64,000 nucleotides of DNA, taken from the NCBI GenBank assembly GCA_024710905.1, contig JANJTV010000109.1:1-64000 (forward strand), in the 5' to 3' direction. The notes below the pieces were generated by a model. It had not been told where the DNA came from and ran no database searches. It was given only the letters and a program-made list of their open reading frames with translations. Position 1 is the first letter of the stretch. Every line of letters begins with the position of its first letter. The DNA comes from Anaerolineales bacterium (GTDB taxonomy: Bacteria; Chloroflexota; Anaerolineae; Anaerolineales; Villigracilaceae). The position numbers and the translations under genes were made by a program. Below, one piece after another: positions 18,961 to 36,701 of the stretch.

Positions 18961-18963
18961 GAA

Positions 18964-20016
18964 TTATCGGAGGACGGTTTGCGTCCAGGCCTCAATCCAG
19001 GCTTCGCGGTTGCCAGCAATATCTTCGGAGGGCAAGCTGGCCGGGGATATTGCTACCCGGGCATATTCAACAAAGACAGGCGGCAGGGCAGCCTGCGGGT
19101 TGACCGGGAAGACGAACGTGCGCAGGGGCATATCTTCCTGGAAAGGCACGGAGAGCATGAAGTCAACAAATTTTTCAGCGGCGGCGCGGTTGGGCGTGCC
19201 CGCGAGAATGCCAACGAACTCAACCTGGCGGAAGCATGTACCCGGCGCAATGATGGAGGCGGTAGGCGCTTCGGTAGACGGTTCTTCGGCAAAATAGACC
19301 TCGGCAGCCGGGCTGGAAGCGTAGGAGACGACCATTGGCTGCGGGCCTTTGCCTGCCGAGCCGCTGAAGTTGGTGTAGTAGGCGGTTTCCCAGCCGTCCA
19401 CCACCTGCACATCATTGGCGCGCAGGGCTGCCCAGAAGTCTAGATAGCCAGGGTCGCCAAACTCGGCAATGGTCGCCAGCAGGAAGGCCAAGCCGGGCGA
19501 GGAAGTAGCCGGGTTTTCCACCACCAGCAGGCCCTTGTATTCCGGGTTGATCAGGTCTTGCAGGCTGGCTGGCACGGGCAGGTTGTTTTCGGCAAACCAG
19601 GCGCGGTCATAGTTGATGCAAACATCGCCATAATCCACCGGCAGGGCGCGGTTTTGCGGATCGAGGCGGAATTCCGTGGGAATCCCGGCCAGGGCGGGCG
19701 CATTATACGGCTCGAAAATATCCGCAGCGAGGGCACGGGAGAGGAAGGTATTATCGACGCCAAAGAAGACGTCAGCCAGCGGCGCTTCGCGCGAGAGGAT
19801 GGCCTTGTTCAGCACGGAGCCGGTATCGCCGCTCTTGAGGAAGGTGACCTTGATGTCGTTTTCAGCTTCGAAAGCAGCCACCACCTCCTCGCTGACATCG
19901 AACGAATCGTGGGTCATCACGGTCAACGTGACAGGCCCGGCGGTAGTTGCCGGGACGCAGGCAGCAAGAACAAGGTTGAACAGCAGGGTGGAAACGATAA
20001 ATTTCTTAAACATCAT
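18964..20016 (-). CDS. thiamine-type ABC transporter substrate-binding lipoprotein (TbpA/ThiB-like)
   Basis: Lipobox VLAACV; LTVMTHDSFDVSEEVVAAFEAENDIKVTFLKSGDTGSVLNKAILSREAPLADVFFGVDNTFLSRAL. Confidence 0.9.
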   Translation of the reverse strand: MMFKKFIVSTLLFNLVLAACVPATTAGPVTLTVMTHDSFDVSEEVVAAFEAENDIKVTFLKSGDTGSVLNKAILSREAPLADVFFGVDNTFLSRALAADIFEPYNAPALAGIPTEFRLDPQNRALPVDYGDVCINYDRAWFAENNLPVPASLQDLINPEYKGLLVVENPATSSPGLAFLLATIAEFGDPGYLDFWAALRANDVQVVDGWETAYYTNFSGSAGKGPQPMVVSYASSPAAEVYFAEEPSTEAPTASIIAPGTCFRQVEFVGILAGTPNRAAAEKFVDFMLSVPFQEDMPLRTFVFPVNPQAALPPVFVEYARVAISPASLPSEDIAGNREAWIEAWTQTVLR

Positions 20017-20027
20017 CACTCCGTGAT

Positions 20028-20672
20028 TTATTTGGACTTTCGCTGGTGGATGCAGCACAAAACACCGCGCTTGACACGAATCTTGGCTGTATCGGCCAGC
20101 ATGCGATTGCTGATGCCGCGCGTGCGGTAAGGCAGCAGGGTTTCCTTGTTGAGGGGGTAGGTCAGGCCTTCGGTGGAAACGCCTTCAGCAGGCACACCCA
20201 ATGGGATGAGCGAAATAATATCCCCCGATGCGCCCTGCACAGTGGCCTGGCTGGTAATAACGAATACCTCGGTCAGCCCGTCATCCAGGCGGGCATTCAG
20301 GGCTTGCAGGTCGGGGTCAGCCAGCAGGGCAACATTGCCGAGCGTTTGGTCCAGCCGGTTCCCCAGTCCGGCCACAATCACTACCGGCGAATAACCTGCC
20401 CGGGAGGCGTGCATCAGGGCCAGCTCCAGGTCGCTTTCGTCTTTATTGACCGGGAAACTCAGGATATGCACACCCATATCATTGAAGACCCGCACCTCAG
20501 CTTCAGAGAGCGAATCCAGGTCGCCGATAATGACATTCGGGATGACACCCAGCGCAATCGCATGCCGGGCGCCGCCGTCGGCGGCAATCAGGAAATCATC
20601 CGGTTCAAGGATCTGTCGGGCTGCGCCTACATCGGGCAGCATCCCGTTTACAAATATGATGGCTCGTGTCAT
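20028..20672 (-). CDS. thiN: thiamine diphosphokinase
   Basis: MTRAIIFVNGML...FLIAADGGARHAIALGVIPNVIIGDLDSLSEAEV...PVNKDESDLELAL; directly downstream of the TPP riboswitch. Confidence 0.9.
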   Translation of the reverse strand: MTRAIIFVNGMLPDVGAARQILEPDDFLIAADGGARHAIALGVIPNVIIGDLDSLSEAEVRVFNDMGVHILSFPVNKDESDLELALMHASRAGYSPVVIVAGLGNRLDQTLGNVALLADPDLQALNARLDDGLTEVFVITSQATVQGASGDIISLIPLGVPAEGVSTEGLTYPLNKETLLPYRTRGISNRMLADTAKIRVKRGVLCCIHQRKSK

Positions 20673-20676
20673 AAAA

Positions 20677-20701
20677 AACAACCTCCGCCGGGGAGGTTGT
20701 T
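20677..20701 (-). terminator. riboswitch expression-platform hairpin
   Basis: Minus strand AACAACCTCC-ccggc-GGAGGTTGTT + TTTTTT; the 3' arm contains the GGAGG SD of thiN. Confidence 0.82.
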
Positions 20702-20714
20702 GGTTTGACAAAGA

Positions 20715-20850: not shown

Positions 20851-21636
20851 TTATCGTACGCGACGTTTCCACTCTTCCTTGAGCTGCAAATCTCGCGGCG
20901 TCTCTCCCGACTCGAGGGTCAGGAAATCATTCAGAAGGCGGTTGAAGCTGGCCACGTCATCCAGCATGGGGAAATGACCGGCCTGTTCCAGCACAATCAT
21001 ATGGGTCATGGCTGGTAGCGCTTCCGGCGAAACAGTCGGCAGCGAAACAGCCGGGTCATTCTGCCCGTAGACCAGCAGGCAGGCCGTGGTCAGGTTTGCC
21101 ATGCGGTTGACCAGCCCCAGGGTATCCTCCGAACCAAAGGAGGCCGGGATGGCCAGTGGGTCAGACTTGGCCGAATCGGTACGAACAGGCTCAGTGCCGG
21201 GATCCTTGCTCAACAGCCACTCAGACAGGTCGGTAGGGGTGCCAGCGCGCAGACGGGCATTGACATTCTCCATGCTCAGGGGCATGTCCACCGCCATAAT
21301 GCGATCCACCATGTTCGGGTAGCGCATGGCAAACATCATCCCCACCAGGCCACCCAGGCCATGCCCGATCAGGGCAACTTTGCCAATGCCCATCTCCTGA
21401 AGGAAAAAATCGAGCAGCGCAGTTTGCTTATCCAGCCCGTAACGATCTTTCTCGTGGGCACTTTCCCCAAATCCCCATAGATCCATTGCATAAGCGCGGA
21501 AGGAGGTCGAGGCCGTCTGCATGGCGGGAATCCAGTACCGCCATGAACCGACCCAGCTGTGCAGGAAGATGATCGGACGGCCACGCCCAATCACCTCGTA
21601 ATGCACAATACCGCCGTCCAGGATAATCGCACTCAT
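20851..21636 (-). CDS. alpha/beta-hydrolase fold protein with nucleophile Ser replaced by Gly (GHGLGG)
   Basis: GIVHYEVIGRGRPIIFLHSWVGSWRYW; elbow VALIGHGLGGLVGMMFA; Asp (GQNDPAV) and His (AGHFPMLD) retained. Confidence 0.85.
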   Translation of the reverse strand: MSAIILDGGIVHYEVIGRGRPIIFLHSWVGSWRYWIPAMQTASTSFRAYAMDLWGFGESAHEKDRYGLDKQTALLDFFLQEMGIGKVALIGHGLGGLVGMMFAMRYPNMVDRIMAVDMPLSMENVNARLRAGTPTDLSEWLLSKDPGTEPVRTDSAKSDPLAIPASFGSEDTLGLVNRMANLTTACLLVYGQNDPAVSLPTVSPEALPAMTHMIVLEQAGHFPMLDDVASFNRLLNDFLTLESGETPRDLQLKEEWKRRVR

Positions 21637-21643
21637 TCGAAGG

Positions 21644-22018
21644 TTATTTTCCGTACTTCTTAAGAATGGCCGAAATACGTTCCGTCAACTGGTCTGGCGC
21701 AAACGGCTTCAAAAGATATTCCTCCGCACCTGCATCCAGTCCTTGCTGAATTTCCAATTCCTGACCCTTGGCAGACAAAAAGACCACCGGTGTGTGAGCA
21801 ACATCCGGGTCAGCCTTAATCTTCTGGCAGGCCTCATACCCGGTCATTTTTGGCATTCGCACGTCAAACATGGCCAGGTCTGGTCGTTCCCTCCTGACCA
21901 GTTCGTAGCCTTCTTCGCCATTCGCACCCGTCACGACCTCATGCCCGGCAAAACGCAGGGTAAAAGCGATCAATTCGCGGATATCGGGTTCATCTTCAGC
22001 AATTACAATTTTCGCCAT
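21644..22018 (-). CDS. stand-alone response regulator receiver protein
   Basis: IVIAEDEPDIRELI, LAMFDVRMPKMTGYEAC, VVFLSAKG, LLKPF. Confidence 0.93.
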   Translation of the reverse strand: MAKIVIAEDEPDIRELIAFTLRFAGHEVVTGANGEEGYELVRRERPDLAMFDVRMPKMTGYEACQKIKADPDVAHTPVVFLSAKGQELEIQQGLDAGAEEYLLKPFAPDQLTERISAILKKYGK

Positions 22019-22021
22019 TCA

Positions 22022-25000
22022 TTACTCCTCAACTTCATCCACCGGCAGGGTGAACGAGAATATACTTCCCTCACCGGGGATTCCCTTGCTGGTCATCCAG
22101 ATTTTGCCCTGATGCATTTCAACCAGTTGTTTGACGATGGGCAGGCCCAGCCCTGTGCCTGGTGTGGCGAGCACGAGCGGATCCTCACCCCGGAAGAATC
22201 GCTCAAAAATGCGATCCTGCTGCTCCAACGGGATGCCGATGCCCGAGTCTTGCACATCCATCTGTACTGTGCCATTCGAGCGCTTAATCTGAATATTAAT
22301 CTTGCCATTGGCGGGCGTGTAATTATACGCATTATCCACCAGGTTACCAACAATCTGGCGCAAACGCTCAGGGTCGGCTAGTACGCGCGGTAACTTCTTG
22401 ACCCCGGAAATCTTCACCTGCATTGGTTTGTTTTCTTCTTCAGCACGGCGCAACACATCAGTCACGACTTCATCGGCCACTTCACGCAAATCAATCGGCT
22501 GCAGCGAAAGAGTCACGCGCCCGGCTTCAATGCGAGAAATATCCAGCAAATCATTCACCAGGATGTTTAGGCGTTCAATATTCCCCTTCACAATATCCAG
22601 GAAATGTGTCTGGTTTTCATTCAGTGCACCAGCCGCGCCCATCAACAACACATCCACATACCCGCGGATGGAAGTCATCGGGGTACGCAGTTCGTGGCTG
22701 ACGGTCGCAACGAATTCAGACTTAAGCCGGTCAACTTCCACTTCATGGGTAATATCGCGGAAAATGGACACCGTGCCCAAGAATTCCTTGCGCCAGATGA
22801 CCGGCGCCAGGTTTACCATGATGATGCGGCCGTTATCCAGGGTTAATTGCTCGGCATAAGTCTCGCCAGCATGGGAGTCTCCCGGGTTTTCAGACCAGTT
22901 GTGAATAGCCTGCACCCAGGCCTGGGTTGTCTTTCCGAACAGACCGGCAAAGTTCTCCAGCGGCTTGCCTGCCATTTCATCTGACCGCAGGCTAAGGATA
23001 CGTTCAGCAGATGCGTTCAGGAAGGAAACATGGTTTTGTGGATCTGTCACGATCACACCATCTGCCACTGCTTCAAGGATGGCGGTTTGGCGGCTGGCTT
23101 CCACCTGCTGGCTGCGCAACATCGAACCGAGCCTTTCGGCCTGGTCACGAATCAACTCATAAAGCTGGGCGTTGTTAATGGCAATTGCCACCTGTGAACC
23201 AATCGCTTTCACCATTTCCAACGCATCTTCGTTAAAGTAACCCACATGGCGGTGGAAGACCATGATTGAGCCTATGACATCTTCGCCAACCGTCAGCGGC
23301 GCAACAACCGCGCTGCGATGATCCTGTGATCCTTGTGAAACAATCCAACGCGGGTCGAGGAACAGGTCGTCCACAAGCACAGACTGGCGATTCTTGACCA
23401 CCCAGCCTGCCAGGCCTTCACCAATCTTGAGTTTCAGGGTGGCGTTGCCCTGGTGTACGTCCGTCACATATCCATAACCGGCGCGGTAATGCAGCATATT
23501 GTCTTCGGGATGAATCAGCAGGATGGTGCCCTGCTCGCCGCCAATGGCTTCATTGAGCAAAGCCAGTGTACGGCTGAGTGCCCGATCCAGGTCGAGGCTG
23601 GCGGACACCTCGGTAAGGATGCGCAGTAAGGTTTCCGTATTGCGCTGTTCGCGCTCCAATTCTGCCGTGCGTTCCACCACGCGTTGTTCCAGGGTGGCCG
23701 CCAGCTGCTGCGTCTGCGCAAACAACTGACCGTTCTTGATTGAAACGATGGCCTGGTTTGCCAGCGTACCAAGAATCTGCAGGTCAGAGTCTGAATAGGC
23801 ATTGAACATATAACTCTGGGCAGAGAGCGCACCAATTGCCTTACCACCAGAGAACATCGGTACAGCAATGATTGAATGAGGTGTACCCCTCTCACCCACC
23901 GTGATGCCCCCCTGCGATTCAGCATCCGCAGCATCCAGGATCAGGATTGGCTCACCAGTATCGATCACCTTGCCGCTCAGGCCCTGCCCGTAAGGCACGC
24001 GCACACCATTAATACGCTGGCCAAAATCATGCACATACACGCCTTCAATTTCATTCGTGTCATCGTCCAACAGGGTAATCACAATCGCATCCACCGGCAT
24101 CAGGCGATTAATCGCTTCATGGATGGCAACATACACTTCTTCGGGGTCCAGCTTGCCGGAAACTTCAAAGCTGGCCTGGTTCAGCATGGAGAGGCGTTCG
24201 GCTGTCGCCACCGTAGATTGGTACAAATCCGCATTTTCCAACGCGATGGCTGCCTGGTTGCCCATGGTTCGGGCAAGTTCAATCTCGGTCGAACTAAACC
24301 GGCGCGGTTCCGCGGATGGGATCAGAACAAGGTAAAGGTTTTGGCTGCTGGCAACAGGCAGAACCAGCAGGGATACCGCACCTTGCAACAACTCGGCCAG
24401 CGGACCGACTGCCTCATCCCCGTCAATATTCTCCGTTGAATAGACGCTCAAGGTTTGGCGAATTTCCTGGAAAAGCGGGGCTTCAGGAACAGCCCGATAA
24501 ATGGGCGGGTTACCGCTTTCTTCAGGGACAACGCTCATCAGGAAACCCTGGTTACTCTGGTCAATCAGGATTACCAGGCCGTTTTGGGCATCCAGGGCCT
24601 GAATCATGTGGGTCGCGGTCAGTGAAAGCACCTGGTCGGCATTCAACAACCCGCTCAGCTCAGAAGAGAATTTATTCAGCAGGCCAAGACGGCGTGAACG
24701 TTCGTCCAGATCGGCGGCGCGACGAATACTTTCTTCGAACAGGTTGGCATTGTCCAAGGCCACAGCCGCCTGGCTGGCAAAAGTTGCCACCAACTGCACT
24801 TCATCATCCACATAGTAGTTGGCTTCAGCCTTTTCAAGCGCAATCACACCAATCACCTGGCCCTTGGCCAATAATGGCACACCCAGCCAGGTAAGGTTTC
24901 GTTTTTCAACCAGGGATGAGAAACGAGCATCCGTACTGACGTCTCCGACTAGGATCGGCTGGCTGGCCCGGGTCATTTCTTCCAGCAAGGCACTGTCTTT

Positions 25001-28000
25001 AATGTCCACCGAAATCCCCTTGCGCTCTTCGGTATCAGCAAAACCACGCGCATCGGCCACACGCATCACATCGCCTTCACGCAGCCACAGGATAGCCGTA
25101 TCATACAAAATAATCGAACCCATACGCTCAAGCAGCGACGCCACCAGTTCACTGCGCTGCAGGCTTGTGGTAATTCCCGCAGAAACAGTGTTGAGCGCTT
25201 GCAACTGTCCCGCACGTTCCTGCGTTGTTTGCACCAGGCGCACATTTTCAAGCGCCAGCGCAACCTGCTGGGTCAACGAAAGCAACAGGTTCTCATCCTC
25301 TACGTTAAAAGCGGATGGTGTATTAAAGTTGTCCAATACCATTACACCCAGGTCGCGATCAGAGGCGCGCACGGGGATTAACATCGATGAAACAGGCAGG
25401 CGCCCCCCGGTTGCCTTCCGATAAAGCAACAAACTCTCCGCTGACAGGTTGTAGTCAACGGCAAAGTTCACTTCTTCCACACGGCGCGGCTGGCCTGCCG
25501 AGAACACCATGCCAGGCAAACCCTCGCCGCGCTGGTAGTTGATGTCCATCACGCTTTCAATATCGGCATACCCGGAAGCAGTTTCAGGAACAAGCATCTC
25601 CAGGCGTTCATTCCATAACAAGACAACACCAGCATGCGCCTCGGGCAAAGCCCCCAATGCACTATCCAGCAACGAGCGGACAATCTCTTGCGGGGTCAGG
25701 CCGCTTAACTGGCGGCTGAAGTCAAGCAGCAAGTTCACTTCAGACAGGCGTTGGCGGGTTTCACCAAGCAGCTGGATGTTTTGCACGATGATTGAGATCT
25801 GGCGGCTAATCTGGTAGAAGACCTGCTTGTCATCCTGCGCCAGGCCCATCATCGGCTCGGTATCCACACCCATCACCGCCGCAACCGGTTCACCATTAAC
25901 CATCACTGGCATACAAATAAAGGATTTCGTTTTGAGCGCCGATAAGAAGGGGGTATCGTGCCAGTTTTCATCCTCATCAACATTGATAGCCACGATAGTC
26001 TCGCCCGTTTGCAGGGAGGTACGCAGCGGATTCTTCTGGCCGAAAAGTGCTTCAAGATTGGTACCACGCGGCAGGTTGCCATAGGTATCCGTAATACGCG
26101 GACCTTCGGATGTATTACGCGCCACCATGGAGATGGTCATATTCAGGCTGGTAAGTAATTGTTTCCCCAGCGTCTGCAAGGCGATATTTGAATCAACCTG
26201 CTTTGAAATGGCTTCGATGACCTGCAAGCCAGCCCGAATCTGGCGAGTGCGTTGGTTCAGGTTGGTAACCGATATGGTCTGCTCCAGGTCTTTGTGCAGC
26301 AACATCGGCAGGCTGCGCTGGCTGAACTGAACCAGGCTTTTCTGGCGCTGCACCTCGGAGGACAGATCGTCAATCTGGGTTTTGTACTCTTTAATTTTGC
26401 CGCCACTGGAAACAGTCAAAGCCGCCTGCACCGCAAATACTTCCAGGCTTTCATAGGTTGAGCGGTCCGGTCGCATGCCATTGCGCGGCGCATCCACGCT
26501 GATTAGCCCCAACGGCTCACCCTGGGTGGATTGGATGGGAATAATCAGGGCATCATCAGGGTGCCAGGCATTCGGCTGATCACTGGCCGCTTCGGCGAGG
26601 GAGGTGATGAATTGGACGTCGGAGGGAATCACCGGCGCCTGGTCATTGGGAATGAAATACAGGTTGCCAATCTTAAAATCTTCGCGCATCAATTGCTGAA
26701 CGCTGTTCCAAGGCTGCGGATGTGCGCTCACTGTTTCCCATACATCATCTGTCAAGCCAGCATGGGTAACACGATTCAATTGACCGGTTTCGCTGTCATA
26801 CAAACTGATCAACACAATAGAAAACGGCGTGGCTTCCACAATGCCATTTGCGATTAGGTGTAAGGCGTCTTCAAGAGGCTGGTCCACCCGCAGGGCCTGC
26901 GATGTTTCAAACAACTGCAAGAGGGTTTGTGTGCGGCGGTTGAGCAATTCAGCGCGGCGCTGCTGGTCGCGGTTACGGAAGGCGTTGGCCAGTGCAATGG
27001 CAGCCTGCACCGAAAGTGAACGCAGGAGTTCGATATCAATCTCGTCGAATCCGTTTTCATCCTTGCTATGCAGGTCAAAGAAACCATATGTTTCTTGTTG
27101 GTAAGCAATGGGAATAGCCAAGGCCTGGAGAATGCCTTCGTGCGGCTGGCGCTCCTCGGTGAACTGCTCCCGAATCACATCCGCCTGTTCAAGCGCTTTA
27201 TTGGCCCGGGCAGGGAAACCCTCTCGCACAGAATGCCCCAGCGACATCAATACCTTGAAGGGTTCGCCTTCTTCACGTGTATCTTCAAAAAAGACTGTGC
27301 TACCGCAGTCAGCGCGGGTAACGCGTAAGGCTTCTTCATGGACAATGCGTAACAGGTCTTTAATGTCAGTGGTGACACTCAACTCGCGCGAGATACGGCT
27401 GATGGATGTAAGCATTTCAGCACGTCGGCGCAATTGCTCATCGGTTTGGGATGTAAGCTGGGCGTTTTCCAAGGCAATGCCAAGCTGGGTCGCCAGGGTG
27501 GAAACCAGTTGCATGTCGCTGTTGGTAAATGCGTTTAATTTCGTAGAACTCAACATCAGTTCGCCAACACCTCGCCCACGCATCACAATCGGGACAACAA
27601 TGGCTGAGGCACTGCCAGCACCACGGATTAGCGGACGATACAGGCCAAACACACGCCGATCGGAAGAAACATCACCCGACATAAACGGCCGCTGGCTGCC
27701 TGCCACGGTAACGTGATAGGCAGCCGGGCGAACATTAATCTGGGAGAGAGACTCAACCAACGAGTCGCGTACCCCAAATAATGACGGCACATGCGCGCGC
27801 ATGATCCCTTCGCGTTCATCGAGCAAAAAGATTGATGCCTGGTCCGCCTGCAACAAAATAGCAATCTCCTGCACCGAAAAACGCAGGATTTCGTCCAGCG
27901 ACGCCTCGGAACTCACCAGGCTGGCGATTCGGCGCATCGACTCAAGCCGCTGGTTACGGATTCGCGCCTGGTTGGCAAGTAAAGCATTCTCAATGATAGA

Positions 28001-29461
28001 TGCGACCTGCCCGGCGGCAATATTCACCAGCCGGAATTCTTCCCGATCCAGACCGGCCTCACTCCCCTGCCAATTGGAAAGCTGCAAATAACCCAGGAAG
28101 CGATTGGAACTGACCAATGGCACAAATAAGGTGTCCCGCATGCTGGCGGCCTGGGCCAGGTCTTGCAGCCCCAACTCACCCCAGACCGGGTCTTGCGCTG
28201 CATTACGTGTCTCTAAAATTTCCTGACGGTCTATATATTGAGCCGCCGGGCTATCATTCTTGATGGTTGTACGATACAGGTTGACGAATTGGTTAGAAAG
28301 ACCATGGAAAGGTGAACGCGCTTCCAGCAGATTACGCTGTTGGTCATAGAGCAGGAAGCCCAAGATACCTACATCGAAAAGGCCAACCAGGCTGTTGACC
28401 AATTTCGAGAACAACTCCCCAAACTCATTGGCAGTAGCCGCAGTTTGCGCCAACTGATCCAGCCCGGCCAACTGGGTATTCCAGCGTTCCTGTTTTTCGT
28501 AAATGAGCGCATTCCGAATGGCATAGGCCACCTGGCCCGAGACCAATTTCAGGATGTTCAAATCTTCATTTGAGAAACCATTCGTTGGGGTTACCCCAAC
28601 TTCGATCGTTCCAATCAGGTTCTTTTCCACCAGGAGCGGTACGCCGATATAAGCGCCCATGGGCGGAATATTCACCCCGGTCGGGTCATACGGCACAGCC
28701 GAAAGACGGGTGTTGGCAATATAAAGCTCTTGCTGTTCATCCAGCAGGCGTGATTCATACGCACCAAAATGACTCTGCCCAACTTGTTGCAAGGTGCGGG
28801 CGGTACCCGAAGGGCCGCCCAGGCGGTAAGCCACCAGGCGTTTTTCAAAATTATTCCAAACCTTAATCTCCAGGTAATCTGACGGAACCATCTGTTCAAG
28901 GTTAGACAGGATGGTCTGTAAAACTTTCTTCAGGTCAAGGTTCGATGCAACCGTTTCACTAAAATCTGTGACGGTACGCAGGGCGTTGGGATGCAAGGTC
29001 TCACGGGAATATTCTTCCGTCGTTGCTGCTGACCCAGCCGAGTCAGCGCGCCGCAACGCCACCAGCACAGACGATACCGCGCCTGGTACGTGATAGGAAA
29101 AGGCATCGACAAGCCGCCCATTAACTGAAAAACGCGTCTGACCTTCAGCCGCGCAAATTTCAAGGAATGACTCGCTGGGCCGTACCCGGCGCCCTAGGCG
29201 TTCAATGTTGGGGGTTTCTCCCTCAAAAAGGTCGAACCACTCTCGCCCCACCTCATTTATCTGCATCACCCTTCCACCAGTTTGTACAATCAGGATGGCT
29301 TCTTCGTGGGACTGAATCTGGGAAAACACTTGGCGGGGAGGTTCCTGCACGGCCGGCCGAACCTGTGGCACAACGCGCAATAATAGCCAGACCAGTAAAA
29401 CAAATACCAGTCCGAAGATCAGGAACCCAATCCCCAGGCCGAGCGATTGCCCTTCGATCAT
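22022..29461 (-). CDS. giant multi-GAF/PAS sensor histidine kinase (2479 aa)
   Basis: N-terminal TM, about 11 GAF-like repeats, PAS (AVADGVIVTDPQNHVSFLNASAERIL), H-box FVATVSHELRTPMTSIRGYVD, N-box NLVDNAYNYTP, G-boxes DSGIGIP/GTGLGLPIVK. Confidence 0.95.
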   Translation of the reverse strand: MIEGQSLGLGIGFLIFGLVFVLLVWLLLRVVPQVRPAVQEPPRQVFSQIQSHEEAILIVQTGGRVMQINEVGREWFDLFEGETPNIERLGRRVRPSESFLEICAAEGQTRFSVNGRLVDAFSYHVPGAVSSVLVALRRADSAGSAATTEEYSRETLHPNALRTVTDFSETVASNLDLKKVLQTILSNLEQMVPSDYLEIKVWNNFEKRLVAYRLGGPSGTARTLQQVGQSHFGAYESRLLDEQQELYIANTRLSAVPYDPTGVNIPPMGAYIGVPLLVEKNLIGTIEVGVTPTNGFSNEDLNILKLVSGQVAYAIRNALIYEKQERWNTQLAGLDQLAQTAATANEFGELFSKLVNSLVGLFDVGILGFLLYDQQRNLLEARSPFHGLSNQFVNLYRTTIKNDSPAAQYIDRQEILETRNAAQDPVWGELGLQDLAQAASMRDTLFVPLVSSNRFLGYLQLSNWQGSEAGLDREEFRLVNIAAGQVASIIENALLANQARIRNQRLESMRRIASLVSSEASLDEILRFSVQEIAILLQADQASIFLLDEREGIMRAHVPSLFGVRDSLVESLSQINVRPAAYHVTVAGSQRPFMSGDVSSDRRVFGLYRPLIRGAGSASAIVVPIVMRGRGVGELMLSSTKLNAFTNSDMQLVSTLATQLGIALENAQLTSQTDEQLRRRAEMLTSISRISRELSVTTDIKDLLRIVHEEALRVTRADCGSTVFFEDTREEGEPFKVLMSLGHSVREGFPARANKALEQADVIREQFTEERQPHEGILQALAIPIAYQQETYGFFDLHSKDENGFDEIDIELLRSLSVQAAIALANAFRNRDQQRRAELLNRRTQTLLQLFETSQALRVDQPLEDALHLIANGIVEATPFSIVLISLYDSETGQLNRVTHAGLTDDVWETVSAHPQPWNSVQQLMREDFKIGNLYFIPNDQAPVIPSDVQFITSLAEAASDQPNAWHPDDALIIPIQSTQGEPLGLISVDAPRNGMRPDRSTYESLEVFAVQAALTVSSGGKIKEYKTQIDDLSSEVQRQKSLVQFSQRSLPMLLHKDLEQTISVTNLNQRTRQIRAGLQVIEAISKQVDSNIALQTLGKQLLTSLNMTISMVARNTSEGPRITDTYGNLPRGTNLEALFGQKNPLRTSLQTGETIVAINVDEDENWHDTPFLSALKTKSFICMPVMVNGEPVAAVMGVDTEPMMGLAQDDKQVFYQISRQISIIVQNIQLLGETRQRLSEVNLLLDFSRQLSGLTPQEIVRSLLDSALGALPEAHAGVVLLWNERLEMLVPETASGYADIESVMDINYQRGEGLPGMVFSAGQPRRVEEVNFAVDYNLSAESLLLYRKATGGRLPVSSMLIPVRASDRDLGVMVLDNFNTPSAFNVEDENLLLSLTQQVALALENVRLVQTTQERAGQLQALNTVSAGITTSLQRSELVASLLERMGSIILYDTAILWLREGDVMRVADARGFADTEERKGISVDIKDSALLEEMTRASQPILVGDVSTDARFSSLVEKRNLTWLGVPLLAKGQVIGVIALEKAEANYYVDDEVQLVATFASQAAVALDNANLFEESIRRAADLDERSRRLGLLNKFSSELSGLLNADQVLSLTATHMIQALDAQNGLVILIDQSNQGFLMSVVPEESGNPPIYRAVPEAPLFQEIRQTLSVYSTENIDGDEAVGPLAELLQGAVSLLVLPVASSQNLYLVLIPSAEPRRFSSTEIELARTMGNQAAIALENADLYQSTVATAERLSMLNQASFEVSGKLDPEEVYVAIHEAINRLMPVDAIVITLLDDDTNEIEGVYVHDFGQRINGVRVPYGQGLSGKVIDTGEPILILDAADAESQGGITVGERGTPHSIIAVPMFSGGKAIGALSAQSYMFNAYSDSDLQILGTLANQAIVSIKNGQLFAQTQQLAATLEQRVVERTAELEREQRNTETLLRILTEVSASLDLDRALSRTLALLNEAIGGEQGTILLIHPEDNMLHYRAGYGYVTDVHQGNATLKLKIGEGLAGWVVKNRQSVLVDDLFLDPRWIVSQGSQDHRSAVVAPLTVGEDVIGSIMVFHRHVGYFNEDALEMVKAIGSQVAIAINNAQLYELIRDQAERLGSMLRSQQVEASRQTAILEAVADGVIVTDPQNHVSFLNASAERILSLRSDEMAGKPLENFAGLFGKTTQAWVQAIHNWSENPGDSHAGETYAEQLTLDNGRIIMVNLAPVIWRKEFLGTVSIFRDITHEVEVDRLKSEFVATVSHELRTPMTSIRGYVDVLLMGAAGALNENQTHFLDIVKGNIERLNILVNDLLDISRIEAGRVTLSLQPIDLREVADEVVTDVLRRAEEENKPMQVKISGVKKLPRVLADPERLRQIVGNLVDNAYNYTPANGKINIQIKRSNGTVQMDVQDSGIGIPLEQQDRIFERFFRGEDPLVLATPGTGLGLPIVKQLVEMHQGKIWMTSKGIPGEGSIFSFTLPVDEVEE

Positions 29462-29470
29462 GATTAACCC

Positions 29471-30370
29471 TTAGGCATTGCCCCCAGAGTCCTGGCGGCG
29501 CGCCTCAGCGGCAAGTTCGGTAATCTCACGAATATCGGCAAACCCTTGTTTGGATGGGGACACCACGCCAATCGACAGGGTCATCAACGGCGCTTGTTCC
29601 TGGCCGCCATCTTTCCCGGGGGCAAAAATGAACCCCTGCTGGCGATCCATAAAGTTATAGTGGGTCTTCACATCCTCAGCAAAGCGGGCTTTCAGGCGTT
29701 CGCGAATGGTATCAGCTGCCCCTTCCTGGCTGATGATGACAAAATTATCCCCGCCAGCATGACCAATAAAATCTGTCGATGTGCCCAAATCATCGAGCAC
29801 CTCACCAATCAACATACCGGTAAAGCGCAGAACATCATCCCCGGCCACAAAACCATAAACATCTTTGAACGGTTCAAAACTGTCAATGCGGATGTCCATA
29901 TAGGCCCAGCCTTGCTCACGAATAATTCGGCGCAGCTGTTCTTCGATCAACCTTCCGGCAGGCAACCCGGAGCGTGGATCCGTTAAACTTTCCCGCTCAG
30001 ACCGCCGGATGGCACCCTGCACGCGTAACTTGAGCTCTTCAATATCGAAGGGCTTGGTAATGTAATCATCCGCGCCAAGTTCCAACCCCTGCAGGCGGTC
30101 ACTGCGCTCATCCTTCTGGGTTAGGAAAATGACCGGGATGTGGCTGGTACGGGTATTGGTACGCAATGTCCGGCAGACTTCATATCCGTCAATATCCGGC
30201 AGCATGATATCCAACACAATCAAGTGAGGCAACACCTGACGTGTCTTCTCCAATGCATCCGAACCGCGCATGGCCGTATCCACATCATACCCAAGCCCGC
30301 TAAAGTAAATCTTCAGCATCGTTGAGATATCAATGTCATCTTCTACAACCAGTAGCCGGGCTTTTCCCAT
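29471..30370 (-). CDS. response regulator with degenerate GGDEF domain (GGDNF)
   Basis: Receiver LLVVEDDIDISTML...LIVLDIMLPDIDGYEVC...FLTQK...ITKPF; C-terminal FIGHAGGDNFVIISQE. GGAGG SD supports the start at 30370. Confidence 0.9.
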   Translation of the reverse strand: MGKARLLVVEDDIDISTMLKIYFSGLGYDVDTAMRGSDALEKTRQVLPHLIVLDIMLPDIDGYEVCRTLRTNTRTSHIPVIFLTQKDERSDRLQGLELGADDYITKPFDIEELKLRVQGAIRRSERESLTDPRSGLPAGRLIEEQLRRIIREQGWAYMDIRIDSFEPFKDVYGFVAGDDVLRFTGMLIGEVLDDLGTSTDFIGHAGGDNFVIISQEGAADTIRERLKARFAEDVKTHYNFMDRQQGFIFAPGKDGGQEQAPLMTLSIGVVSPSKQGFADIREITELAAEARRQDSGGNA

Positions 30371-30397
30371 AATAGAGCCTCCGTTCAAAATATTCCA

Positions 30398-31486
30398 TTA
30401 TCTGCGTTTGAGCGCCTTGCGGGCATTCTGTCGCACAAAATCAATTTGGTCTTCCGTTACTTCACGCTCAAAAGAGCGAAAACCACTTAGCCGAAAGCCA
30501 TGCTTTTTGGCAATGGCGGTTATTTCGTCCACCCGCTCGCGCGAGATGTCCTTACCCAGTGTATAGTCTTCAAAGCGGCCTTCCAGTGCCAGGGCCATTG
30601 TTTCGGCCATGCAGGCATAAGATTTGCCCTCCGGGAAGCCAAAGTTAAAGTGAAAATTGACCGGCCCGGGTACATCCACCATGCCGCCATCGACCACAAG
30701 TATATCGTTTCGCGCCGCTGCCACCATTGCAGATACATCGCGAGGCCGGGCAACATCACAAACAACACTACCGGGCTGCAAATGTTCAGGCCTGATGACA
30801 TCATGCACAGCACTCGTCACCGTCAGGGTTAACTGCGCTTTTGAAAGCACATCCATACTGGTACTCACATGCAGGCAAGCCTTCGAGCGCGGGGAAATCC
30901 TTTCCCGCACGGCGTGCAGGGCATCCTCGCGGCGACCTATTAAGTATAACTCACCTACGGCCTCTGCGAGAAGTTCTGCACAAACTTTGCCGATTGTTCC
31001 GCTAGCCCCCACCACAGCCGCAGTTGCCGATTCGAGGGGAATTTCCATCACCCGTGCAGCTTCGATAATTGCATCCACCGCCATCGAGACAGTATAAGAA
31101 TCACCAGTTGTTACAGGCACATCTAGGGAACGGGCAATGGTAATACCGGCATCCCCCACCACCGAAGTAAAGGCCCCCAGCCCTAAAATATTTGCGCCCA
31201 GCCGCTCGGCCAGGCGCCCGGTTTGTATGATCTTGTCGTAGACCATTTTTTCCGGCAGTTCCAGCATACGTTTTGGCGTAAATGGGCAGGCGATGAACCA
31301 GCCTTTTATTTCCTTCCCGGTTGCTGCCGAGGTTATTCCTTCAATTTCAGAGATATATACCGGCGGGAAAAACGTGGAGAAAAAGTTAATCTGGTCTTCG
31401 TTGAGAATACGCCCGAGCAGGGGAAATTTACGGCTGACATCCCTTTTCGGGTCAATCGGGTGAATGATAAATGCAAAAGAATCCAT
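30398..31486 (-). CDS. long-chain acyl-ACP reductase (AAR)-like protein / predicted amino-acid dehydrogenase
   Basis: ITSAATGKEIKGWFIACPFTPKRML, LGLGAFTSVVGDAG, VTTGDSYT, AAVVGASGTIGKVCAELL, KSYACMAETMALALEGRFEDYTLG align with cyanobacterial AAR motifs. Confidence 0.78.
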   Translation of the reverse strand: MDSFAFIIHPIDPKRDVSRKFPLLGRILNEDQINFFSTFFPPVYISEIEGITSAATGKEIKGWFIACPFTPKRMLELPEKMVYDKIIQTGRLAERLGANILGLGAFTSVVGDAGITIARSLDVPVTTGDSYTVSMAVDAIIEAARVMEIPLESATAAVVGASGTIGKVCAELLAEAVGELYLIGRREDALHAVRERISPRSKACLHVSTSMDVLSKAQLTLTVTSAVHDVIRPEHLQPGSVVCDVARPRDVSAMVAAARNDILVVDGGMVDVPGPVNFHFNFGFPEGKSYACMAETMALALEGRFEDYTLGKDISRERVDEITAIAKKHGFRLSGFRSFEREVTEDQIDFVRQNARKALKRR

Positions 31487-31488
31487 AA

Positions 31489-32766
31489 TTACCAAGACTC
31501 AAGGTCTGCCTGCTCCTGGCGGGAATATAAACGCTTGTGCATGGAAGCGTTCTTGAATTTATGATGGTCGCTGTCTTCATAACGAATGTCTTTGTCAATT
31601 ACCCGGCGTTCTTTGGATGCCGCCAGCACAACATCAGACTCAATGGTCCTGGCAGGATAGACGATCATCCCGGAACCCAGGCGGCAGTTATGCCCTACCG
31701 CCCCGCCAAGCACAGGCCGGTTGGAAGGTCGTAACTGGTCGGCCCCATCCAGGGCGCGGATAGGTGCAGGGATTAGGTTGTAATCAGTAAATGTCGAACC
31801 AGCGCCAATGAACGTATTACGCCCCACCACGCACATTTGCAAACAGGTATTTTGCGCAACCATCGAGTTATCCATGATGGTGGTCATAAACAGGGCGGCG
31901 CGGAATGGCAGGAAAGTGCCATCCCCGACCACGGAAAGCATTAATTGCACATCCTGCGAAAGGTTTACATTATTCCCAATAATGCAATTCTCCACTACTG
32001 CGCCGGGACCAATGGTGACGTTATCCCCAATCGTCGTCGGGCCGTGGATAATGGCATGCGGGTCAATAATGCAATTCTTGCCAATCTTGACCAGCGAAGA
32101 GCATTCCAGCAGTTGTTTGCCTTCATAAATTGCCCGGCTCAAAACACCAAGCTTATAACCGAGGTCAATAGCCAGTTGGTTTTCAAAACGCGCGCCGCGT
32201 TTGAACAAACCAAAGATAATATCCACAACAAAGATGTGAACCCATGAATCAATGGCAATTAACGCCCGCAATGGGACCTGGAAGACCAGGTCGCCGCGCT
32301 CGCCAGCCATATAAGACGGCACATGGTAATAGCCAATCTCACGGGCCTGCAGGTCAATCACCAGCGGCTCCACATCCGCCACCGGACCGTTGGGGTAATA
32401 CCACAGGTCAGCCATGTACATATGCCCGGCAGGAGCATAAGATGTAGAGAGTGGCAGGGCATGTTCTCGGAAAGCAGGGTCATCCAAAGTAAACGCTGCC
32501 CGGCAGGGGCGGTTTTTCCTGCGTGCCTGGCGCAAAAATTCCTGGATGTAATGCTCGTCAAAGAAAAGGTTGTCGCGGTAGACCAGCATCGGTTCGCGCA
32601 ATAAAGGCAGCGGCGCGCCTGCCCGAACATCCACTTCGCGGGTGACGTATGGCGCAAGGACATCCCGCTGCCATAGCCAGAGCGGTCGATTCTGGATTCT
32701 TAGATCACGGGCGGCTTCATTGAAAGGGGACAGTTTCCGTGGTGCTTTCAGGATCACTTTTAACAT
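31489..32766 (-). CDS. hexapeptide-repeat (left-handed beta-helix) transferase
   Basis: Hexapeptide repeats IGKNCIIDPHAIIHGPTTIGDNVTIGPGAVVENCIIGNNVNL. Confidence 0.82.
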   Translation of the reverse strand: MLKVILKAPRKLSPFNEAARDLRIQNRPLWLWQRDVLAPYVTREVDVRAGAPLPLLREPMLVYRDNLFFDEHYIQEFLRQARRKNRPCRAAFTLDDPAFREHALPLSTSYAPAGHMYMADLWYYPNGPVADVEPLVIDLQAREIGYYHVPSYMAGERGDLVFQVPLRALIAIDSWVHIFVVDIIFGLFKRGARFENQLAIDLGYKLGVLSRAIYEGKQLLECSSLVKIGKNCIIDPHAIIHGPTTIGDNVTIGPGAVVENCIIGNNVNLSQDVQLMLSVVGDGTFLPFRAALFMTTIMDNSMVAQNTCLQMCVVGRNTFIGAGSTFTDYNLIPAPIRALDGADQLRPSNRPVLGGAVGHNCRLGSGMIVYPARTIESDVVLAASKERRVIDKDIRYEDSDHHKFKNASMHKRLYSRQEQADLESW

Positions 32767-32772
32767 TTTTTA

Positions 32773-33396
32773 CTATCCCATCGGAACTGAATCTATGAGG
32801 ATTGTACAAGTGTTGTCGCCGCAGGCAATACACTGGGTTTCTTCCACGTGGAACAGCTTGCCACCGCTGACCCAGTACAAAGCTTCCTGGAGCAGGCCAA
32901 CAGCCAGGTGACAGGACGGTTCATTTGCCTTGCGCTCCCAGCACAGTGGGCAACGATCAATATGCCAGAGCAATTGCCTATCCAGCATTTCCACGCGGAC
33001 TTGCTGGTCTGTATATTTATTGAATATATCCGCAAATGCGTTCGCGCCAACTTTCAATTTCATCGGTAGCGGCATCATCCGAAAACTGAGTTCAGTCAGG
33101 CCCAGGGCGGGACCAAACTCGCGCAGGCCATGTGAAAAACAGGAACGCCCTGCCCGCATGGCAATGCCTTTGCCGCCGCGCGGGCCGTAGACCTCTTCAA
33201 GGCCAGTTTGTATCTTGCTGACTGCAGAAAAGGGAAAAAGACGCTGTTGATTGTGCGGGGGGTATTCTTGCACCCATTCATTGAGGGCAATGCGATTTAA
33301 TAATGCCCGGACGCTGTTACGGCCAATAATTTCTTCGGTGGCCAGAAGCAAAATCCGCCCCATCAGGTTTGGATAATGGTACATCTCAACAGTCAT
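32773..33396 (-). CDS. V4R (4-vinyl reductase) domain protein
   Basis: C-terminal LLQEALYWVSGGKLFHVEETQCIACGDNTCTILI typical of V4R. Confidence 0.78.
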   Translation of the reverse strand: MTVEMYHYPNLMGRILLLATEEIIGRNSVRALLNRIALNEWVQEYPPHNQQRLFPFSAVSKIQTGLEEVYGPRGGKGIAMRAGRSCFSHGLREFGPALGLTELSFRMMPLPMKLKVGANAFADIFNKYTDQQVRVEMLDRQLLWHIDRCPLCWERKANEPSCHLAVGLLQEALYWVSGGKLFHVEETQCIACGDNTCTILIDSVPMG

Positions 33397-33400
33397 CGCA

Positions 33401-34195
33401 TTACTCGCCCGACTCTTCGTCGAGGAAGTTTTTCAGTTTTTCCATGAAATCTTCAGATGTATCGAGCATGGGGAAGTGTTGCGCCTTCTCCCATCGCACA
33501 ACCTTGGCCGTTGGCACGCCCTGCACCAGCGGCTGCCACTGGCGAGGGTGGACGATATTATCGCGGTCGCCATACATCCCCAACACAGGCACTTTAATCT
33601 GGTTAAGCATGGGGCGCAAATCAGTGCGACGCAAGGATGCAATTGAAAGCAGGAAGGATTCGAGAGTTGTGGCCGACAGGTCGCGATCCATCATCTTCGG
33701 GAAGCGCGGGTCGCTACAGATAAACGGGGAAGCCACACGGATACCGCCCCTGAACGCCCACATCATATTAAACAGCATCATGGCGATAAAATGATAGCCG
33801 GCAAGTTTTAATGGGATGGCAAGCGACGAACCCACAATCGGCGAACCTACCACCACAACTTTGGAAACACGCTGGGGATATTGCAAGGCCACAGACAGGC
33901 TGACCGTACCGCCCATGCTATGCCCAACCAGCGGGGCACTCACAATACCCAACCGATCCATAAATTGGTCTACAAGGCTGACAAAATCCTGAACAGCGTA
34001 AGTTTCACGTTTCTTGCCCGATTCACCAAACCCCCAGAAATCCAAGGCATAGGTGCGATAATAGCGGCCTAAATAAGCCATGGTTTCCTGCCACAACCCC
34101 CACGAGCCAAGCCAGCCGTGAAGGAGGATTACAGGACGCCCACGCCCATAGACTTCATAATGTACTATACCCTGGTCTGTGGTGATGGATGACAC
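33401..34195 (-). CDS. alpha/beta hydrolase (RsbQ/D14-like)
   Basis: GIVHYEVYGRGRPVILLHGWLGSWGLW; nucleophile elbow LVGHSMGGTVSL; GDRDNIV; AQHFPMLD. Confidence 0.9.
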   Translation of the reverse strand: MSSITTDQGIVHYEVYGRGRPVILLHGWLGSWGLWQETMAYLGRYYRTYALDFWGFGESGKKRETYAVQDFVSLVDQFMDRLGIVSAPLVGHSMGGTVSLSVALQYPQRVSKVVVVGSPIVGSSLAIPLKLAGYHFIAMMLFNMMWAFRGGIRVASPFICSDPRFPKMMDRDLSATTLESFLLSIASLRRTDLRPMLNQIKVPVLGMYGDRDNIVHPRQWQPLVQGVPTAKVVRWEKAQHFPMLDTSEDFMEKLKNFLDEESGE

Positions 34196-34229
34196 AACAT
34201 TCGCCGTGGTTCAAAGATGGGGGTGAAAA

Positions 34230-34769
34230 TTACTTGCCGCCTTCCATTTCAGCCAGGATGCTGTACAGCAATTCCAGTAGGACATTCTTTACAGCCGCCT
34301 TATCTGATGCAACGCAGGGCAATAATTTCACTTTTGAGTCGAGCCGCAGGGCATGGCGCATGTCGTCCAATTCCCAGGCGTCGTCACGATCCTGCTTGTT
34401 GGCCGCCACGACATATGGAGTGGGAGCGTACGCACGGAAAGTTTCAAGGATGGAGCGGGCTTCACGGAAAGTTTCCGGGCGGGTGCTGTCGACCATCACA
34501 ATAAAGCCAAGCATCCCTTCCGAGAGAATCTCCCACATGAAGTCAAAGCGTTTCTGGCCAGGGGTACCGAACAGGTACAACACCAGGTCTTCATCCACCG
34601 TGATGCGGCCAAAGTCCATCGCCACCGTAGTGGCCTGTTTGACAGCCTTTTCAGAGTCCGAGCTGATCTTTCGCTCTGTCGAGACAACATCAATTTCGCT
34701 GACAGAACGGATGAATTCCGTTTTGCCAGCACTAAAGGGGCCGGTAACAACCATTTTGACCGTTTGCAT
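34230..34769 (-). CDS. MglA-like small Ras-superfamily GTPase
   Basis: G1 VTGPFSAGKTEFI, G3 LFGTPGQKRFDFMW, G4 VAANKQD. Confidence 0.87.
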   Translation of the reverse strand: MQTVKMVVTGPFSAGKTEFIRSVSEIDVVSTERKISSDSEKAVKQATTVAMDFGRITVDEDLVLYLFGTPGQKRFDFMWEILSEGMLGFIVMVDSTRPETFREARSILETFRAYAPTPYVVAANKQDRDDAWELDDMRHALRLDSKVKLLPCVASDKAAVKNVLLELLYSILAEMEGGK

Positions 34770-34790
34770 AATTCCTCACCCTTGCCAGAT

Positions 34791-35612
34791 TTAGATGGAC
34801 CTGATGCGCGTGATCAAGCGGTTGACCAGCGACTTCTGCTCTTCCTGATCCTTGACCGGCAATGATGGACGTGCCCGTTCGGGCACAGACGCCGCCCCTT
34901 CGGGGCGAACCACTTCCACCAGGCCAGCCTGTATCAGGCCGTAAACAATGCGGCGGATTTCAATATCGCTCATTTTGGAAGCCGAAGCGATCTGCCGCAT
35001 TGTGTTCTTGGGATTAATAAATGAAACCACCCGCCATTCTTCCACGCTCAAATTCATCTTTTGAATGTTGGCACCGGGCCGCTCTGTGAACTTGAGCGCC
35101 ATATCCAGACTGGGGATTTCATCCTGCAATTGCTCCAACTCGCGCAACTGGCGTGAGCCCTCGATAATCAGGTTCTCGAGATCAAGGCGAACATTGATGC
35201 GATCATCTGAAGGCAGGGCTTCGTTGTCAAACCGGAACGAGCCCTCCACCCAGGTAAATAACTTGCGTATCACATCCGTAAAATAGGCCTGCAGGGCATT
35301 CAGCACATCTTCCTGGGTCATGTATCCGGCATTAATCAACATCAAGCCAAGTTCCTTGTCAGAGATCTGCGCTGCACGGGTCTGGATCGCCTTCAACTGC
35401 CCGGTGGTCAGACGATTGGAACGATGTAAAACAGCCGCAAGGCGGCTGTCATCTTGCCCCACCTGGGCATAGGCCAGTTTTCCATCCCGAAACGTAATCC
35501 GGGCCGTATCATTAGGCGCTTCAACAATCAAAGTGCCCGTCTTGCTGGCAAGGTTGATCAAGTTAAGCAACTGCGTGACCGTAAAATCACGCAGGTTACC
35601 TCTTAGCGCCAT
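34791..35612 (-). CDS. DUF4388 (PATAN-like) domain protein
   Basis: MALRGNLRDFTVTQLLNLINLASKTGTLIVEAPNDTARITFRDGKLAYA. Confidence 0.87.
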   Translation of the reverse strand: MALRGNLRDFTVTQLLNLINLASKTGTLIVEAPNDTARITFRDGKLAYAQVGQDDSRLAAVLHRSNRLTTGQLKAIQTRAAQISDKELGLMLINAGYMTQEDVLNALQAYFTDVIRKLFTWVEGSFRFDNEALPSDDRINVRLDLENLIIEGSRQLRELEQLQDEIPSLDMALKFTERPGANIQKMNLSVEEWRVVSFINPKNTMRQIASASKMSDIEIRRIVYGLIQAGLVEVVRPEGAASVPERARPSLPVKDQEEQKSLVNRLITRIRSI

Positions 35613-35659
35613 AAGCTGCCTCGATGAGTCAATTTGTCCGCAAGAAACATATTAAAAGG

Positions 35660-35688
35660 ATTATACATGGTAGGTATGCTCGCGTCAA
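35660..35688 (-). promoter_or_regulatory. sigma70-type promoter at the head of the 10-gene operon
   Basis: Minus strand TTGACG - 17 bp - TATAAT, about 48 bp upstream of the DUF4388 start. Confidence 0.75.
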
Positions 35689-35738
35689 ATAAGTGAAGCA
35701 TGGAATGTATGGCGACTGAAAGGGTCAAATTTGCCTAC

Positions 35739-36701
35739 TTAGGGTCCCGGGCGGGCTTCAACAACTGCCTTCACTTGCGCAATGGCCGGGCCAAAGCTGT
35801 ACACCTCCACGGCAAATTCGAGCGTATCACCGGGCTGCAGGCTGCCCTGCCATTCCCAGCGACGCACCCCCACCACGCTGCCATCCGCCGCATACGCCAC
35901 CGCCGCCAGCCAGATCGTATCGGCGGGCACAGGCGCATCCTGCGCCAGGCGTAAAACCCCATCCAGGTTGGCTATCGTGCCGGTGACATCCACCAGGGTA
36001 ATCACTTGCTCAACACTGATTGATACATAACGAGGGTCGCTGGGCAGTAATAGGGTGCTGTTTTGCAGGGTCGTCACGCCGTTCAGGCCATCGATGGATT
36101 GATTGGGGAAGAAAACCACTAGCGGGAGCGTTTCGCCGGGCGGGATGATATTTAACGGGGCATACGCGGGCTGGCTCACGACCGGCCTGCCATCCGTACC
36201 CACCAGGCTAACCTGGGCAATGGGATTTTCTACCGACAGCCCAAACGGGTTGCCCGCCAGCACCAAGCAATACACCCCGCCGCCAGATGGGAAACACCCT
36301 GGTGGCCAAAGTTGAATGCCCGCCGGGGTGGGAGCGGCAATGGCCTGGGCATCTTCAGAACTGGCCGGGATGCGCAACTGCTGGCCAACAAACAAAGATT
36401 CAGCCACCACGCCTGGGTTGGCCGCCTGCAAATCTTGCAGCCGAATTCCAAAATTTTCGGCAATCTGGCCGAGTGTATCATTGCGTTGAACGGTATAAAT
36501 AAACGGGGTTGGGCTGGGCAGCGGGATGGGCGTCTGGAACTGGGTTGCTGTCGGGGCGGCAAAAACCGTCCGCGTGGCATAAGGCTGGAGCATAACAGTG
36601 GGCAAGGCTGTGGGGGAGCCCGCCTCCCCAGCGTTGAACGCGGCACAACCTGTCATCAAAAAAATGACCAGCAGGGCTGGCATCCATCTTCTCTCTTTCA
36701 T
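35739..36701 (-). CDS. LysM-domain lipoprotein
   Basis: Lipobox LMTGCA; YTVQRNDTLGQIAENFGIRLQDLQAANPGVVAESLFVGQQLRIP. Confidence 0.87.
   Translation of the reverse strand: MKERRWMPALLVIFLMTGCAAFNAGEAGSPTALPTVMLQPYATRTVFAAPTATQFQTPIPLPSPTPFIYTVQRNDTLGQIAENFGIRLQDLQAANPGVVAESLFVGQQLRIPASSEDAQAIAAPTPAGIQLWPPGCFPSGGGVYCLVLAGNPFGLSVENPIAQVSLVGTDGRPVVSQPAYAPLNIIPPGETLPLVVFFPNQSIDGLNGVTTLQNSTLLLPSDPRYVSISVEQVITLVDVTGTIANLDGVLRLAQDAPVPADTIWLAAVAYAADGSVVGVRRWEWQGSLQPGDTLEFAVEVYSFGPAIAQVKAVVEARPGP

Follow-up and report, generated by a model that had tools for sequence, protein, structure and literature searches.

We analysed a window of 64,000 nucleotides, that is, the whole stretch of DNA formed by positions 1 to 64,000 of contig JANJTV010000109.1 (assembly GCA_024710905.1) from an Anaerolineales bacterium of the phylum Chloroflexota, and concentrated on ten genes encoded on its minus strand. 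We show that these genes form a single, strictly ordered cluster behind one conserved near-consensus promoter, and that this arrangement is retained across the class Anaerolineae. All ten open reading frames (ORFs) were confirmed at their places, spanning positions 35612 to 20851, and the domain labels given to them in a first-pass annotation of the DNA were upheld by Pfam and NCBIfam. In the order of transcription, the features of the cluster are the following:

35660..35688, minus strand: promoter TTGACG-17-TATAAT, kept as TTGAC[G/T]-17-TATAAT (score 11/12)
35613..35659, minus strand: 5' leader, 47 nt long; many relatives have a short stem-loop at its start, variable in sequence
34791..35612, minus strand: gene 1, DUF4388 protein of 273 amino acids (PF14332, 95.9 bits for a cut-off of 25)
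34230..34769, minus strand: gene 2, MglA-like small Ras-like GTPase of 179 amino acids (PF03029/Ras)
33401..34195, minus strand: gene 3, alpha/beta hydrolase (hydrolase 1) with an intact Ser93-Asp212-His240 triad (135/135)
32773..33396, minus strand: gene 4, stand-alone V4R protein (PF02830, 34.7 bits for a cut-off of 31)
31489..32766, minus strand: gene 5, hexapeptide protein with a degenerate nucleotidyltransferase-like N-domain and a left-handed beta-helix (from the Hexap match and the fold)
30398..31495, minus strand: gene 6, AAR/PigE-type acyl-thioester reductase of 365 amino acids, with Cys295 (from models and residues)
29471..30388, minus strand: gene 7, receiver with a phosphorylatable Asp60 and a degenerate GGDEF domain (GGDNF), from its residues
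22022..29461, minus strand: gene 8, kinase of 2479 amino acids with 10 GAF stretches, PAS, HisKA and HATPase domains (Pfam)
21644..22018, minus strand: gene 9, lone CheY-like receiver with Asp52 (Asp in 110/110)
20851..21636, minus strand: gene 10, alpha/beta hydrolase with GHGLG replacing GxSxG (from residues and paralogy)
20677..20701, minus strand: terminator-like stem followed by a T-run, a possible transcript end (pattern match only)

Layout and promoter of the cluster

With the longest possible starts, the intergenic distances measure 21, 34, 4, 6, -7, 9, 9, 3 and 7 bp in the window. An ATG start for the gene 6 reductase removes the overlap of 7 bp, so that the earlier description of ten co-directional genes separated by 2-34 bp, in the order listed, is a fair one and is confirmed by the ORFs. 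The promoter proposed before gene 1 was confirmed as well: it matches the consensus at 11 of 12 positions, for an expected number of such sites of 0.1 in 18 kb on both strands, and it is conserved in related loci. The score of 11/12 was found in 55/55 loci with a clean gene 1 start, shuffled upstream regions giving a mean of 8.0, and 64 of the 77 loci outside the home family score 11 or 12. Over the 55 loci, the -10 element is invariant and the sixth base of the -35 element is nearly always G or T. The regions upstream of the internal genes reach a score of at least 10 in at most 5/73 loci, and of the 161 other gene starts of these loci only 2 score 11. No obvious terminator had been noticed inside the cluster. 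Terminator-like sites do not exceed chance frequency in the region (25 found for 19.7 expected, with a standard deviation of 4.6). The stem in the leader averages 6.3 bp at its best in the relatives (L061-L139 among them) versus 4.6 bp in shuffles; in the window's own leader the stem-loop is not clear.

Conservation and modular composition

Gene neighbourhoods were compared over the whole class by anchoring them on the GTPase, which provided 99 loci from 40 families. Of these, 96 have a monotone gene order, and the three exceptions only shift the V4R gene behind gene 10. The complete set of ten was found in 28 loci (11 families), and 46 loci (22 families) contain eight or more of the genes; neighbourhoods anchored on the reductase nearly always contain the same ten genes. 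The 80 named loci agree, all of them being titled Anaerolineae, Anaerolineales, Chloroflexi, Chloroflexota or a member genus. The reductase occurs at 71-83% identity in most genomes of the home family, all of different genera, and at 63-75% in several further families belonging to the order. The flanks are variable, only 38 of 396 flanking ORFs having a homolog beside the operon in at least three other families. The refuting condition named with the first-pass annotation, a lack of co-conservation in related genomes, did not hold: the genes are co-conserved, and in order, over 40 families.

The DUF4388 protein was found in all 40 families, and the invariant core of the cluster is this protein with the GTPase, not the enzymes. 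V4R accompanies the core in 29 of the 40 families. The downstream end is complete in 65 loci, and 15 loci, from six families, present DUF4388-GTPase-V4R alone. Loci in families f23 and f24 contain the enzyme set without the phosphorelay (DUF4388-GTPase-hydrolase-Hexap-AAR, no kinase), and f2 shows the phosphorelay and V4R without the enzymes (DUF4388-GTPase-V4R-receiver-GGDEF-kinase-receiver). The gene for the acyl-ACP (acyl carrier protein) reductase, or AAR, was never seen in these loci without that of the hexapeptide protein. Gene 10 is present in 26/27 loci having both sets versus 1/38 of the others, an association with a Fisher probability of 7e-16 by locus and 9e-7 by family, uncorrected for phylogeny. 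The enzyme set (hydrolase 1, hexapeptide protein and reductase) and the phosphorelay set (receiver-GGDNF, multi-GAF kinase and receiver) are attached to the core as units, together with V4R and with the nucleophile-less hydrolase. Within the phylum but outside this class, 8 of 9 loci read have the DUF4388-GTPase pair on its own, and a locus of another class (L272) carries a rearranged cluster, DUF4388-GTPase-V4R-Hexap-hydrolase.

The recurrent flanking ORFs listed comprise one gene upstream and a thiamine pyrophosphokinase gene downstream. In the window, a LysM-domain lipoprotein-like gene lies directly upstream on the same strand (35739-36701), and some relatives have its homolog upstream too. 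Upstream of DUF4388, nine families share one gene (L209, L213, L221, L223, L224, L230, L232), which has a lipoprotein-like start in L190 and L191. The stretch just downstream (17278-20711) encodes the thiamine pyrophosphokinase, which several families also have beside the operon, together with a permease and a substrate-binding protein. Between these genes and the operon are a promoter-like site (20845-20817) and the terminator-like stem (20701-20677).

The GTPase core, the V4R sensor and a second locus

PF14332, the family of the DUF4388 protein, is one we take to be the same as PATAN. The middle part of the protein (residues 53-110) is weakly similar to the N-domains of PilB, PilF and MshE, with a best E-value of 1e-4, and its C-terminal part shows a weak likeness to MarR winged helices. 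N-domains of the PilB/PilF/MshE type can bind cyclic di-GMP (c-di-GMP). A relationship of DUF4388 to Roadblock was considered and rejected, profile comparison giving it a probability of 0.3%. The GTPase presents GTPGQ in its G3 motif in 158/158 sequences, which is the mark of MglA groups 2-5 (PMC4316618). Thr48 is invariant (158/158) and is a candidate for the Thr that replaces the intrinsic Arg of G2 in these groups. The ten genes encode no MglB/Roadblock partner; coupling to Roadblock is usual for MglA groups 2 and 3 but does not extend to all members of group 5 (PMC4316618).

A Roadblock protein is nevertheless encoded in the same genome, at a second locus where Roadblock/LC7, a V4R paralog and a receiver-GGDEF paralog follow one another:

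C67:2530-4522 of the own genome (L275, G000:C67): Roadblock/LC7, V4R paralog, receiver-GGDEF paralog
L275:2530-4522, L277, L284, L286, L287, L290-L293, L295, L297 and L053:410-2298: instances of the second locus

This locus was found in most of the relatives checked (families f1, f3, f4, f6, f7, f8, f12, f13 and f14). It is divergent in f2, reduced to Roadblock-V4R in f5 and f9, and absent from the one f11 locus read. Roadblock and the GTPase are both missing from the same genome, one out of 41. In a single genome, G031 (L053), the three genes sit immediately upstream of the operon. Because the second locus is conserved and adjoins the operon in G031, the GTPase, V4R and Roadblock are tied by gene linkage, and they are the three folds of the TRAPP core, gene-linked over two loci.

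The V4R protein gave a model of high confidence, with a predicted local distance difference test (pLDDT) of 93.5. Foldseek matched it over most of its length to H-NOX, to MopR/PoxR, which are sensors of phenol, and to palmitate-bound TRAPPC3 with E-values of 1e-5 to 1e-4; these matches came from the fold search alone, a profile search against PDB sequences having returned none. Among the sequences with a letter at the position, C162 is conserved in 116/116, E186 in 109/112, C189 in 109/111 and C197 in 109/110. We presume from what is known of MopR/PoxR that these residues are zinc ligands, and the conserved set fits a predicted zinc site. The YxSxR motif is absent from the sequence, and V4R was rejected as a heme sensor of the H-NOX type.

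The enzymes and the nucleophile-less hydrolase

The closest relative of the gene 6 reductase is the thioester-reductase half of PigE (217 bits; PDB 4ppm, 2.5e-35), the second being the cyanobacterial AAR (106.8 bits for a TIGR04058 cut-off of 449.7; PDB 6jzq, 1.1e-23), and the protein stays under the curated cut-offs of both models. The catalytic Cys295 and the GxxGxxG motif are present in 133/133 sequences. The protein consists of the reductase only, without a fused class III aminotransferase. The reductase domains of PigE and TamH turn acyl thioesters into aldehydes (PMC8341465, PMC9594044). AAR-like reductases also exist, in other classes and in some members of this class, behind an N-terminal domain of about 300 amino acids that has no Pfam match, in proteins of about 685-760 amino acids (L168-L174, L179, L182). 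At L181:8018-10567, a TamH-like fusion of a class III aminotransferase with an AAR-like protein precedes a gene matching the multi-GAF kinase.

Hydrolase 1 has no close PDB relative at 1e-20. The model of the hexapeptide protein has a pLDDT of 91.0, the remaining four models being much poorer (63-78), and its fold, taken over the whole chain, matches that of sugar-1-phosphate nucleotidylyltransferases carrying a hexapeptide tail (such as ST0452 and GMPPA, 1e-13 to 1e-10). The signature GxGxRxxPxxxxxPK of nucleotidylyltransferases is absent from its N-terminal sequence. Its assignment as an LpxA-type acyltransferase was unsupported, the whole-fold matches being to nucleotidylyltransferases.

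Of the paralogs of gene 3 in the genome, gene 10 is the closest. Its nucleophile Ser is lost in 97/103 sequences, where it is replaced by G (70), D (15), N (6) or A (6), and the His and Asp are mostly kept.

The phosphorelay proteins

The phosphorylatable Asp60 of gene 7 is present in the 135/135 sequences with a letter there. The Glu of its GGDEF motif was found in 0/132 sequences, the position being occupied by N (99), D (27), S (4) or T (2), and on this ground its function as an active diguanylate cyclase was rejected. The kinase encoded by gene 8 has an N-terminal hydrophobic segment, predicted to lie in the membrane, which is found in 49 of 50 close orthologs.

Relation to known systems

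The cluster resembles the systems of MglA groups 2-5 and the Streptomyces conservon (CvnA kinase, CvnB roadblock, CvnC and CvnD GTPase) by the GTPGQ of G3, by a GTPase linked to a histidine kinase and by a Roadblock protein in the same genomes, and PATAN neighbours are known for group 5. It differs from them in that its Roadblock is encoded apart, in a second locus shared with V4R and receiver-GGDEF. The four-gene set of the conservon is incomplete here, neither a roadblock nor a CvnC-type domain being found among the ten genes, and the operon adds DUF4388, V4R, two hydrolases, a hexapeptide protein and an acyl reductase. The reductase shares with AAR, the PigE N-domain and the TamH C-domain the fold family, the GxxGxxG motif and the Cys (Cys295, for Cys296 in PigE and Cys294 in AAR). 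Unlike them, it is stand-alone, has no fused aminotransferase, falls below both cut-offs and occurs in genomes without an aldehyde-deformylating oxygenase (PF11266 in 0/41 genomes, the control being detected in Synechococcus elongatus).

V4R has the full-length fold of the V4R, H-NOX and TRAPPC3 sensors and a Cys/Glu set matching the V4R zinc site, but it stands alone beside a Ras-like GTPase instead of being fused to a transcription factor, and it does not contain YxSxR. The Asgard and eukaryotic TRAPP modules (Rab GTPase, roadblock/longin and TRAPPC3) use the same three folds that are gene-linked here over two loci; here the GTPase is a bacterial one of the MglA type, no longin protein was found and no membrane traffic is known. 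In pairs of the RsbQ type, an alpha/beta hydrolase works with a sensor. The cluster also places an alpha/beta hydrolase with a sensor protein, and differs in that one hydrolase keeps its triad and has a paralog without the nucleophile.

Interpretation and alternative explanations

The gene content of the loci implies that acyl chemistry is coupled to signalling genetically. We infer, with about even confidence, that the cluster represents MglA-type GTPase signalling wired to acyl metabolism. The reductase would produce a fatty aldehyde from acyl-ACP or acyl-coenzyme A (acyl-CoA). Hydrolase 1 and the hexapeptide protein may form or consume that intermediate or a related one, of lipid or envelope nature, and the operon would in this way produce or turn over an acyl-derived compound. 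V4R, with its hydrophobic-ligand fold, and the Ser-less hydrolase would be binding-only receptors for such a molecule, while the GAF kinase would add further cues and phosphorylate both receivers, the receiver-GGDNF protein being a putative non-cyclase adaptor. The GTP state of the GTPase would be the output; DUF4388 and the second-locus Roadblock protein would help to set it, and it may act on a process at the membrane or surface, for instance envelope growth, polarity or pili. In a narrower version, which we judge unlikely, the GTPase circuit would respond to lipids and be assembled from the TRAPP-core folds, namely a Ras-like GTPase, Roadblock and a sensor of the V4R/TRAPPC3 fold, encoded over two conserved loci. 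With its own acyl-aldehyde enzymes and a multi-GAF phosphorelay in one operon, the circuit would have V4R read a hydrophobic acyl product and tune the GTPase.

Several observations weigh against this wiring. The AAR gene is cleanly missing between those of the hexapeptide protein and the receiver in 10 loci from 7 families; as these loci are otherwise intact, the sensors cannot depend on its product as an obligate signal, nor is this product the sole possible signal. V4R is missing from other loci and, with AAR and V4R each missable, any given ligand-sensor pair is dispensable. Gene 10 keeps its Ser in 6/103 sequences (f20, f102 and L051), and the co-occurrence tests take loci or families as independent. 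The modelled gene 5 protein resembles a degenerate sugar nucleotidyltransferase and not an acyltransferase, which makes the name of acyl enzyme doubtful for it. The original proposal, in which the production or turnover of an acyl molecule is coupled to its sensing and to a phosphorelay, therefore stands in part: the genetic coupling of the sets is retained, but the core does not consist of the enzymes and the AAR product is not obligate.

The same genes may also be read as a cell-surface or polarity operon, an explanation that is possible but against which we lean, in which the GTPase, DUF4388 and Roadblock would run a membrane machine (for pili, gliding or envelope growth) in the manner of MglA/MglB, the enzymes would only supply an envelope lipid for it, a product that is itself unsensed, and the kinase would read outside cues. 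Polarity and pili are governed by GTPases of the MglA type with their Roadblock partners, and groups 1 and 5 have PATAN neighbours on record (PMC4316618). The weak likeness of the DUF4388 middle part to the PilB and MshE N-domains, the six families whose DUF4388-GTPase-V4R loci lack the enzyme set, and the absence of AAR alone in some loci would also suit such an operon, which leaves unexplained why gene 10 is restricted almost only to loci with the enzyme and kinase sets and why a hydrophobic-ligand fold, that of V4R, stands beside acyl enzymes.

It is quite improbable that joint high expression, favoured by selection, and a strong promoter are all that holds the genes together, the enzymes having no direct coupling to signalling. 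The promoter is unusually strong and conserved, and the enzyme and signalling sets can be missing separately, but the order of the genes and their near-zero spacing persist over 40 families, most flanks changing (38/396 recur), and L272, from another class, still groups DUF4388-GTPase with V4R-Hexap-hydrolase. An alkane or fatty-alcohol operon of the cyanobacterial AAR type with attached regulators would account for an AAR-like reductase with an intact Cys and Rossmann motif; this explanation is very improbable, given a score of 107 bits for a cut-off of 449.7, the lack of an alcohol dehydrogenase among the ten genes and PF11266 in 0/41 genomes, and the alkane pathway itself was rejected on this last count.

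Significance

No earlier description of the cluster was found in the open-access papers searched (on Chloroflexota acyl-ACP reductases and on DUF4388 or V4R with GTPases), subscription journals being outside the search. Ten unrelated genes kept in a fixed order behind one near-consensus promoter throughout a class are rare outside the ribosomal and ATPase operons. This conservation of order and promoter points to a basic and as yet unnamed function of the Anaerolineae, and to an undescribed signalling circuit. The loss of the nucleophile in gene 10, conserved and placed beside an intact paralog, offers a clean case for the question of how enzymes turn into receptors.

In the Asgard archaeon MK-D1, GTPase genes are reported to be generally outside operons with such partners (PMC10933270). 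Here, a small GTPase is tied by gene linkage to its candidate regulators, which according to the same study is hard to do in MK-D1, and the joint role of bacterial V4R and MglA-like GTPases becomes directly testable with single purified proteins. If the reading based on the TRAPP folds were true, the Anaerolineae would possess a bacterial counterpart to the acyl-binding TRAPPC3 acting on Rab.

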